Assembly (NCBI RefSeq): GCF_004335085.1
Contig: NZ_RQRS01000014.1
Location: 1 to 64,000, forward strand
DNA length: 64,000 nucleotides
From: Pedobacter nototheniae
Lineage (GTDB): Bacteria > Bacteroidota > Bacteroidia > Sphingobacteriales > Sphingobacteriaceae
Reading direction: 5' to 3'
The stretch's first letter is position 1. Every line of letters begins with the position of its first letter. The translations under genes and the position numbers were made by a program. Of the stretch, positions 4,990 to 9,333 are shown piece by piece. The notes under the pieces are model-generated. The model worked only from the letters and a program-made list of their open reading frames with translations. It was not told the DNA's origin and did no database searches.

Positions 4990-5529
4990 ATGCATAAGAT
5001 TCAGGTAGAGGATAAAGAATTTGAGATATTTTTAGAAAATGATAATCTGAATAAGCGTATCAGGTTGCTGGGCATTCAGATGAATGTAGATTATGAAGGC
5101 AAATGTCCTTTATTTATTGGCGTTTTAAACGGAAGCTTTCTGTTTATGGCCGATTTAATTAAAGAAATTAGTGGCGCTTGTGAAATCGCCTTTATGCGTG
5201 TAGCTTCTTATGAGGGAACGGAAAGTAGTGGAACTGTAAAAGAGCTGATCGGCTTACCAAATGATATTGAAGGCCGAGATATTGTAATTGTAGAAGATAT
5301 TGTAGATACTGGGCTTACTTTAACCCATATTTTAAAAACCATTAAGGCTAAAAATCCTGCATCTGTAAAAGTATGCTCGCTTTTGCTAAAACCAGCTTCA
5401 TTAAAACATAAAATAGAAGAACTTGAATACATCGGTTTCGAAATTCCGAATGAATTTGTGGTAGGTTATGGCTTGGATTATAATGGACTTGGCAGAAATT
5501 TAACTGACATTTACAGAGCCACGTCTTAA
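4990..5529 (+). CDS. hpt: Hypoxanthine phosphoribosyltransferase
   Basis: The 179-residue protein has the purine phosphoribosyltransferase fold. The PRPP-binding loop is at residues 98-110 (IVIVEDIVDTGLT, with E102, D103 and D106). The flexible loop carries MRVASYEGTESSG at about 69-81, and the start region has the GVLNGSF motif. It salvages hypoxanthine (and usually guanine) to the nucleotide with PRPP. The length is typical. Its stop codon shares the four bases TTAA with the stop of the convergent receptor gene, so the two genes overlap by four bases. Confidence 0.94.
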   Translation: MHKIQVEDKEFEIFLENDNLNKRIRLLGIQMNVDYEGKCPLFIGVLNGSFLFMADLIKEISGACEIAFMRVASYEGTESSGTVKELIGLPNDIEGRDIVIVEDIVDTGLTLTHILKTIKAKNPASVKVCSLLLKPASLKHKIEELEYIGFEIPNEFVVGYGLDYNGLGRNLTDIYRATS

Positions 5530-8096
5530 AAATTAAAAATATAATTTATCTGAAAAAAGCGCCCCAATAGCTGATAGCTTGAATTTGCCTCAGTATATGC
5601 TGATAGATAATTTGTGCGATAAGATTTTATATTAGCCAGGTTAATTGCTGAGAACGTTAGCTCTTGCCTGGCTTTTGCAAACTTCCAATTTAAATTGGCA
5701 TCCAAAAATAAATAGTTCGAAGCATTGCTGCTTGTACTTTTATAAAATTGATGCTCAACATTCACTTTAAAAATTACGGGTTTTACAGGCAATAAAACCA
5801 ATTCCATTTTCTGATTTATAAATGTGTTCATCTGCGCTACTAAATCAAGTGGCGTTGTTTTAGATCTTGTAGGAACATAAGATGCTCCGTATTTAATGTA
5901 AAACCAATTATTAAACTTGGTATCTGTGCCTAAACCATAAGTATATACCGTTGTTTTGTATGGTAAAAGTTGCGCATTAAGCACCTGATTACTATAAAAT
6001 TGCTGCAAAGCAAAATTTGCTTTTAGCGTTGTTTTTAGCTCGAAAATGTATTTATTAGAGTTTCCAATTAACAATAAATTCCTATTGTAATTAATTAACG
6101 GAAGCTGCAGTGTTGTTTGATTGAAATTATTAAAATTGATTTGACTTATAGCGTTATTTTCTTTTATACTATACAAACCAAAAACATTAAAAGAGAAAAG
6201 ACTTATGCTTTTGCTAAAGTTGTAACCTATAGAAAAATTGTGGGTATTGGTTTGAGATAGAAAATTAGCACTGTAAGCATTAAGGGTTCTGTAATTTGAT
6301 AATATATAGCCCTGATACTGCGTATTGGCATCTCCAAAATCTTTTTTATACTGATATTGGGCTGTCACTCTGTTTTCTCTTCCCTGATTAATTTTAAGGG
6401 CTATTTTAGGCTCAAAAGCAAACTTATTATAATCGTGATTACTTTCGTACAAATTATCATTAAAAATAAAATCATTATAATTAACAGGTAGCGCCAGTGA
6501 TATTTTTACTTTTTCATTTACATAACTAAACGAAGGATTAAATTGAAGCTTATTATATTTCCACTTTAAATTATTCCCCAACTGATTTGAAGAAATATTA
6601 TTTATGTCCGAATTAATTTCCTTTTCATCATAAGTATGAGAAACTTTATACTCTTGAAAAATTTTGCCACTTGATACTTTTATAGATAGGCTATTATTTA
6701 TAAATAATTGAGGCGTTTTAATGTGCTGTAATTCATATCCGTTAAAAACAGAAGGAGTTAAATTTAAATTTTGATCATTATTTGATTTACTAATGAAAGA
6801 GAAAAATTCTAATGCCTTATCATTTTGAATGGGTTTAATATATTTTGCCTCATTGTAAAACTCGTATGGCTTTATGTTTAAAGCTTGATTTATTGGGTTA
6901 GCATTTATCGAAACAAAAGCATTGGTATTTGAGGTTTCATTTTTAAAAACCAAGGTATTACTAAAATAGTACTCCTTTTTATTAATGGTTAAATCGCCTC
7001 TAAGCTCAAACCTTTGCGGATTATTGTTTTGGTTCTGATCTTCATAATAGCGAATTGTATCATTCAGAATAATTTGTTGCGTTAATCTGGAGAAAGCACT
7101 TTTCTGCATATCTCTAAAATAATGACCAGAAAGTTTTAACTGAACATCATTATTAAGCTTAAACAATTGATTGCTTGTGGCAAGAAACGCCTTGTTAAAT
7201 AAATATTTGTTTGAGTTTAAATTGGGTGAAGTAATTGTATTTAAATCAATTGTTGGATAGTTTGTATTTCGACCTAAATCTGCATTTTTTTCGGTAAAAT
7301 TTTGTGCAGTAATTTCTTTGGATAGATCGTAACCATCACTATTGTATTTAATTAAATTTAGAGTTTTATAGCCTTTTTTTAAACTCATTAAATTTGTTTC
7401 TTCCTTAAAATGCTCATTTGATCCCAGTCCTAAATTAGCCAAACCTGTAATTTTAATTCTTGCTTTTGGATTTAAAACGAGGTTTAAAGAAACATTATCG
7501 CTTGGCGAAATTTTATTAAGCGCTTTTATAGGTTGATGGTTTTCGAAAACTTGCAGTGTATCTACTATCCCTGAAGGAATTGTCTTAGTGCCTAAAGTGT
7601 ATTTATCATCTAATAGATTATCGCCATCAATAAAAAAACTGGTAATTGATTTACCGTTGTAGCTTATTTTTCCTGCTTCTGTAATTTCAATTCCTGGGAT
7701 TTTTTTTAAAACGTCTTCCACAACCCGATCTTGAGGAACTTTGTAAAAGGAAAGATCAAAATTGGTTGTATCGCCACGTTTTTGAATAGGAGCTGGCTTA
7801 CTTTTAACTAAAACTTCGTTTAAAATAAAACTGGAAGCTTTTAGTATAACATTGTACGTTTTTTGTGCTGCCGTTATTATTATTACTTTTTTCTCAAAAC
7901 CTACAGATGTAAATTGCAGCTGTAAACCCACCACATTGCTGTTTTCTTGCTGTTTAAAGGTGTATTGCCCTTCTTTATTACTTTGAGTATATTTTACAAT
8001 TACACCATTATTAAGCAGCGCAACATTGGCAAAAGCTATGGGTTTGCTTAATGAATCTGTAACCATTCCATGATATAATCTTGACAAAAGCCCCAT
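5526..8096 (-). CDS. TonB-receptor-like outer-membrane barrel, 5' end out of frame
   Basis: The frame encodes 856 residues. Residues about 8-90 are a CarboxypepD_reg-like sandwich (GMVTDSLSKPIAFANV). About 105-205 resembles a TonB-receptor plug (VVEDVLKKIPGIEI, FFIDGDNL), and the rest is a long beta-barrel ending in Phe (YIFNF), as outer-membrane proteins do. This frame starts with MGLLSRLYHG and lacks a signal peptide. A very good signal peptide lies just upstream in another frame, starting at 8149 and overlapping the stop of the GLPGLI gene as TAATG. A one-base frameshift near 8068-8085 therefore probably separates the two parts. It is either a sequence error or a real mutation. The ligand is unknown; the coupled GLPGLI gene suggests a two-gene envelope unit. 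Confidence 0.85.
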   Translation of the reverse strand: MGLLSRLYHGMVTDSLSKPIAFANVALLNNGVIVKYTQSNKEGQYTFKQQENSNVVGLQLQFTSVGFEKKVIIITAAQKTYNVILKASSFILNEVLVKSKPAPIQKRGDTTNFDLSFYKVPQDRVVEDVLKKIPGIEITEAGKISYNGKSITSFFIDGDNLLDDKYTLGTKTIPSGIVDTLQVFENHQPIKALNKISPSDNVSLNLVLNPKARIKITGLANLGLGSNEHFKEETNLMSLKKGYKTLNLIKYNSDGYDLSKEITAQNFTEKNADLGRNTNYPTIDLNTITSPNLNSNKYLFNKAFLATSNQLFKLNNDVQLKLSGHYFRDMQKSAFSRLTQQIILNDTIRYYEDQNQNNNPQRFELRGDLTINKKEYYFSNTLVFKNETSNTNAFVSINANPINQALNIKPYEFYNEAKYIKPIQNDKALEFFSFISKSNNDQNLNLTPSVFNGYELQHIKTPQLFINNSLSIKVSSGKIFQEYKVSHTYDEKEINSDINNISSNQLGNNLKWKYNKLQFNPSFSYVNEKVKISLALPVNYNDFIFNDNLYESNHDYNKFAFEPKIALKINQGRENRVTAQYQYKKDFGDANTQYQGYILSNYRTLNAYSANFLSQTNTHNFSIGYNFSKSISLFSFNVFGLYSIKENNAISQINFNNFNQTTLQLPLINYNRNLLLIGNSNKYIFELKTTLKANFALQQFYSNQVLNAQLLPYKTTVYTYGLGTDTKFNNWFYIKYGASYVPTRSKTTPLDLVAQMNTFINQKMELVLLPVKPVIFKVNVEHQFYKSTSSNASNYLFLDANLNWKFAKARQELTFSAINLANIKSYRTNYLSAYTEANSSYQLLGRFFQINYIFNF

Positions 8097-8149
8097 GAAA
8101 TATTAAACAAACTAAATAATAAAAAGAAAAGACTCTTTTTTTGGCGCAT
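8068..8149 (-). other. Displaced start and signal peptide of the receptor-like gene
   Basis: From the ATG at 8149 the minus strand reads MRQKKSLFFLLFSLF, then NISWGFCQDY, a textbook Bacteroidota export signal ending in a cleavage-like FCQ. The next in-frame residues (IMEW) do not fit the carboxypeptidase-like strand, while the neighbouring frame gives HGMVTD at the same place. Adding one base in the stretch 8068-8085 would join the two parts. The ATG overlaps the upstream TAA stop by one base, so translational coupling is likely. Confidence 0.75.
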
Positions 8150-8955
8150 TAAGGCTTTAACTCAATAGGGTTATTTTCCGTTTTCTTTGCGTTCTTAAAT
8201 AAATCGGGGTTATTTGGTGAAAGCCTTACCCCATTAACTTCATTTTGAGCGAAAAAAGCATTAGGATCATTTCTCAACAAATCAATTAATCTGCTATAAT
8301 CTGCTTGCGTGGCAACTATCGCAGCGGCTGGAATAGTTATAGTTTCAATGGTTTTCGCTTGTTTTAATCCATCAAACATAAACTCTACTTCATGTTTATC
8401 ATCATACGCTTGTAGAATTAAGCCTGGCAACCCACACAATTTCCAAGGCCCAGTGTTATAAGGTAAATCTGGAGCAAACCAGGCTGTATAGTTTCTGCCT
8501 TTAAAAACAGCCTCTGCCTTTTGGCATTTAATTCCTGATAAAGTAAGTGTATCAGTTTTAATTTTCCATTCTATATTAGGATAAGCTTCATTAATGGCAT
8601 AGGTTTTAATAAGCTTTTCTAAAACAACTATTTTTTTATCGGCAGCATAATTAAAAATCTGTGTACCTATGGTTTTTTTGCGGTTGGCTGTATTGATTAC
8701 GTAACCGCCTTTGCCATCATCCTGCACAGATGTATTTTTTATAGAATCATTTACTATCTTATCATAACTTTTATAAACAGAAATATTTTTGCCTGCCCAT
8801 AAAACCATTCTTTCTTTGTATAAATTCGATTTATCCAATGTATCCTTTAAATGGTTAAACTTATAAAAAACAGTTATTAAAGCCTGCTCTCCCTTTTGCG
8901 CTTTTACATGGAAAAAAAGAAAACCAGCGATTACAACAAAAAAATATCTTTTCAT
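8149..8955 (-). CDS. GLPGLI family secreted protein
   Basis: The 268-residue protein carries a signal peptide (residues 1-19, cut after VKA before QKGE) and the family's name motif GLPGLI at residues 175-180, within WKLCGLPGLILQAYD. Other hallmarks are the NYTAWFAPDLPYNTGPW stretch just before it and an FEV/EFMFD strand after it. The family is exported, is found in Bacteroidota and has no established function. Its genes often sit beside TonB-receptor-like genes with a CarboxypepD_reg domain, as here. The stop codon overlaps the displaced receptor start by one base, which supports an operon of this gene followed by the receptor. Confidence 0.9.
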   Translation of the reverse strand: MKRYFFVVIAGFLFFHVKAQKGEQALITVFYKFNHLKDTLDKSNLYKERMVLWAGKNISVYKSYDKIVNDSIKNTSVQDDGKGGYVINTANRKKTIGTQIFNYAADKKIVVLEKLIKTYAINEAYPNIEWKIKTDTLTLSGIKCQKAEAVFKGRNYTAWFAPDLPYNTGPWKLCGLPGLILQAYDDKHEVEFMFDGLKQAKTIETITIPAAAIVATQADYSRLIDLLRNDPNAFFAQNEVNGVRLSPNNPDLFKNAKKTENNPIELKP

Positions 8956-9057: not shown

Positions 9058-9333
9058 TTAACCGCAAATGGCATTATCATACATATCACTTAGCACTTCA
9101 AATGCTTCTTGTCTTTCTTTGGGTGTTCCCCCTTCACTACACATTGTTTCAAAAAACGTTCCGCAACTGGCATTAATTTGCACAGGGTAGCAATCCATTC
9201 TTTTCTTTACCGTTGTCTTTTTAATGGTTTTGACCTTTTTATATTTAATAGAATTTTTTGTGGTTTTACTTTCTTTACTAAAACCTGCAAAAGATATGGC
9301 GATGAGAGCCATTAAGATTAGTAGTTTTTTCAT
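9058..9333 (-). CDS. Small secreted cysteine-containing protein
   Basis: The 91-residue protein has a signal peptide (residues 1-17 or so, MKKLLILMALIAISFAGFS), a very basic Lys/Thr-rich linker at about 20-45, and a C-terminal segment with four cysteines (DCYP, ASCG, TMCS, AICG). The spacing suggests two disulfides after export. I do not recognise a family. A TAAGTTTG -7 element lies upstream at 9374-9381, which supports a real, separately transcribed gene. A rival frame on the other strand (9109-9315) has no such signals. Confidence 0.65.
   Translation of the reverse strand: MKKLLILMALIAISFAGFSKESKTTKNSIKYKKVKTIKKTTVKKRMDCYPVQINASCGTFFETMCSEGGTPKERQEAFEVLSDMYDNAICG

Follow-up and report, generated by a model that had tools for sequence, protein, structure and literature searches.

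How should a gene be read when the signal peptide that opens it and the body that follows stand in different reading frames? This question is raised by a locus on the minus strand of a contig of Pedobacter nototheniae, here studied in a window of 64,000 nucleotides (the whole stretch of DNA analysed). A reading made from the sequence alone had proposed that the start at ATG 8149, coupled as TAATG to the preceding gene for a GLPGLI protein, gives a signal peptide whose receptor-like body lies in another frame, and had offered three options, namely, an assembly error, a recent pseudogene, or a phase-variable gene. The comparison with related loci described below favors the second: the locus is probably an ordinary recent pseudogene that arose by the real loss of one base.

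Results

The frame break and its position

The ATG at 8149-8147 lies inside TAATG, overlapping the stop of the GLPGLI gene, and opens a signal peptide; the peptide read from it, MRQKKSLFFLLFSLFNISWGFCQDYIMEWLQIH, ends at the stop codon 8050-8048. The barrel open reading frame (5526..8096, 856 codons) begins MGLLSRLYHGMVTDS and is, as had been proposed, in another frame, the -1 frame relative to the signal peptide. Body-frame stops at 8105 and 8114 lie upstream of this frame, so that no upstream start gives in-frame access to the barrel body; together with the one at 8050, these stops leave only the stretch from about 8105 to 8050 for a shift of frame that would connect signal peptide and body. 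The break thus removes an essential part of the gene, its export signal, since the signal-peptide frame ends at 8050 and the body frame is closed upstream. Internal ATGs at 8096 and 8066 could start a body that lacks the signal peptide. The bases at the break do not form a homopolymer. The features of the locus are as follows:

5526..8096, minus strand: gene body with CarboxypepD_reg domain, plug-like region and predicted outer-membrane beta-barrel; 856 codons, stop-free
5529..5588, minus strand: last ~20 barrel codons, of which a remnant still follows hpt in G062, the nearest relative found
8051..8149, minus strand: signal-peptide frame, 33 codons, TAATG overlap with the GLPGLI stop; stop codon 8050-8048
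8068..8085, minus strand: frame-break site, one base fewer than in the Pedobacter gandavensis orthologue, at ~8072/8073
8149..8955, minus strand: GLPGLI family protein (TIGR01200 / Porph_ging), intact, with its own signal peptide
9058..9333, minus strand: small exported 91-residue protein, third gene of the block, conserved in both orthologous loci

Orthologues and family copies

Among 145 genomes of the same genus, two close orthologues of the barrel gene were found, in G030 (locus L012, 73% identical), whose contig matches P. gandavensis LMG 31462, and in G021 (locus L013, 67% identical). Both are read as one continuous 878-codon frame through the same TAATG start, with the signal peptide followed directly by the CarboxypepD_reg domain. 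Against the P. gandavensis locus the window is short by one base (TATA-TCATGG versus TATATTCATGG, at window position ~8072/8073). This falls inside the range of about 8068-8085 in which the sequence-only reading had placed a single restoring base, and P. gandavensis provides the predicted homologue with one extra base and a continuous frame. The two orthologues and the window copy share gene order and domains, and the TAATG overlap is present in both orthologues, but only in the window is the signal peptide out of frame with the body.

The wider family gives the same picture: 35 of the 36 other copies read (duplicate loci entered once) carry a signal-peptide-like leader in frame, and none starts at the MGLLS position without a signal peptide, the type of homologue that had been named as evidence against a break. 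The sole exception, L172 (G005:C7:129800-134000), is another frame-broken, GLPGLI-linked copy, in which the signal peptide runs ~30 residues into the domain before a stop and the body lies in the other frame; its break position differs from that of the window, and the core gene mfd is intact in its genome. One-base frame breaks also occur mid-gene, at different sites, in a paralogous GLPGLI-linked barrel gene at L170 (G087) and L171 (G121); mfd is intact in G121 and broken in G087, which is probably an error-prone assembly. Paralogues of the GLPGLI-linked barrel gene in the same genome were recorded on C95 and C10, where an initial scan of the genome contigs with one protein as query had given no match.

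Identity of the barrel protein and its partners

The GLPGLI partner scores 157.2 bits against TIGR01200 (cut-off 50). In the papers that a literature search found, GLPGLI proteins appear only among the genes of expression studies. The 91-residue protein, for which no Pfam or NCBIfam family was matched, has conserved cysteines and is the neighbor of the GLPGLI and barrel genes at each of the three orthologous loci.

The body had been described as CarboxypepD_reg, plug and barrel. The first of these is the only domain called by Pfam on the window protein; plug and barrel received no Pfam or NCBIfam call (Pfam Plug was not significant), and a PDB sequence search with a three-orthologue profile gave no match, so that their support comes from the predicted fold. 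The predicted structure (17 sequences; mean pLDDT 80.5, pTM 0.73) contains a CarboxypepD_reg-like domain, a plug-like region and a large barrel, and its structural matches are mostly outer-membrane receptors, e.g., FhuA, BtuB and FoxA. The protein is thus predicted to be a TonB-dependent receptor-like barrel, with a plug and a large outer-membrane beta-barrel. It resembles receptors of the FhuA and BtuB type in fold (VIA-align Z ~15, Foldseek E ~1e-15) but differs from them in sequence, with 8-12% identity.

Age of the break and constraint on the gene

Across its 856 codons the window barrel gene contains 0 stops and no second frame break. Over 844 aligned columns, 63 residues are unique to the window and 67 to P. 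gandavensis, and the NG86 estimates are dN 0.17 versus dS 2.9, the latter near saturation. The similar numbers of lineage-specific residues and the open body indicate that the frame was broken very recently, or that the break is an error. Judged from these substitutions, the gene has been under ordinary constraint nearly until the present, a pattern that fits an intact gene carrying a one-base sequencing error equally well.

Fate of the locus in relatives

The nearest relative found, G062 (by Mfd, 99% identical), lacks the three-gene block, and hpt adjoins psd. Directly after its hpt, 60 nt align with the final ~20 codons of the barrel gene (QLLERFCKVNYIFNL versus QLLGRFFQINYIFNF), with an alignment score of 70 versus 25 for the best of 500 random segments. 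In locus L192 of this genome, positions 923-984 after reverse complementing hold this remnant of the C-terminal barrel strand directly after hpt, where it was left by loss of the block. Such a loss, with a remnant in place, implies that this lineage can do without the locus.

In G021 the block occupies the same hpt-psd site; in P. gandavensis it lies elsewhere, with hpt and psd on another contig. In G064, G131, G136 and G129, hpt and psd are nearly adjacent and no block is present. At locus L196 (G009:C12:344500-346600), hpt and psd are separated by an unrelated open reading frame and a 113-nt partial repeat of the hpt 3' end; insertions seem to be tolerated in the hpt-psd interval. The three-gene block is accessory, and its loss or breakage has recurred around this lineage.

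Discussion

Real mutation or assembly error

The alternative that the cell has the extra base, and that the gene encodes a normal exported barrel, is an unlikely one that still deserves to be taken seriously. It would explain why the gene is otherwise perfect and constrained; moreover, the genome is a draft (106 contigs, 99.97% complete), and breaks occur even in the core gene mfd of other assemblies of the genus (G087, G002 and G096), where they are most simply such errors. However, the site is not a run of one base and lies 8 kb inside its contig, and mfd is intact here; error-prone assemblies of the genus can be recognized by mfd, and this genome is not among them. In a frame survey of 864 kb of this genome against 540 kb of G021 and 400 kb of G062, no within-gene frame break was found in 163-175 genes (versus G021) and 158 genes (versus G062), together covering ~277 kb of this genome; the survey is blind to breaks that leave merely a short end out of frame, and the barrel gene itself was unflagged. 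The clean ~277 kb and the non-homopolymer site make a real mutation likelier than an assembly error. One N-terminal break flagged in a C106 gene of this genome was rejected, as the flagged sequence appears to lie upstream of the true start and a conserved MSAVEINKDT start follows the break; two N-terminal breaks flagged in G062 were set aside in the same way, as they look, from the protein starts, like noncoding sequence upstream of the true start.

Phase variation and use of the present frame

Could the frame be switched, or used as it is? A slipping tract that alternately connects and disconnects the frames of signal peptide and body is extremely improbable. An A7 tract does lie in signal-peptide codons 3-5, and another early frame break occurs in the family (L172), but a change in its length could not join the frames, as the body-frame stops at 8114 and 8105 intervene. 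A7 tracts are common in the window, yet rarer than in shuffles (74 versus 193), the broken copies of other species break elsewhere, and the break site itself has no simple-sequence tract or other simple repeat that could set the frame by slipped-strand mispairing, nor an invertible segment; a weak inverted repeat at 8150-8228, within the GLPGLI gene, was rejected as one. A working protein made from the present frame, whether by programmed -1 frameshifting or by internal initiation, is very unlikely too. The body is in the -1 frame and one canonical heptamer, A AAA AAG, is found at 8141, but it precedes the body-frame stops and was rejected as a frameshift site for this reason; no canonical X XXY YYZ heptamer occurs within 8105-8050, the usable frame overlap, and the intact orthologues need no frameshift. 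The ATGs at 8096 and 8066 could initiate the body, but the product would be without the signal peptide that is present in intact copies. Of the three options first offered, the recent pseudogene is therefore the best supported, the assembly error keeps the modest probability given above, and phase variation is left without support.

A probable recent pseudogene in an accessory block

With the one-base loss taken as real, the locus would be a Pedobacter accessory block of a small exported protein, a GLPGLI protein and an exported outer-membrane barrel, whose barrel gene was hit by a single-base deletion in the codons just past the signal peptide. Ribosomes starting at the coupled TAATG would make a 33-residue peptide and then stop, and a barrel made from an internal ATG, without its signal peptide, would remain in the cytoplasm. 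We infer that the living cell lacks the base and that export is lost; the barrel gene almost certainly no longer yields a functional surface protein. The break would be recent, as the gene is otherwise undamaged and its evolution has been under the same constraint as that of the intact orthologue. In its one-base break, its otherwise intact and constrained gene and the loss of the locus in a near relative, the case resembles the single-indel pseudogenes of bacteria, and no difference from them was seen in this assembly.

A reading in which the early breaks in the GLPGLI-linked barrel genes of this genome and of G005 were repeatedly favored by selection against a surface protein, e.g., by phages or toxins, and did not arise by chance decay, is highly improbable. 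The other broken copies were rejected as proof of biological recurrence, since mfd is also broken in G087 and G002, which makes these assemblies suspect.

The case matters mainly for annotation, as automatic gene calling would report a barrel that starts at MGLLS and has no leader, which would be misleading. The locus also offers a small, clear case of the loss of an accessory surface operon: two relatives keep it whole, one missing base breaks it here, and in G062 only the last ~20 codons of its barrel gene remain.
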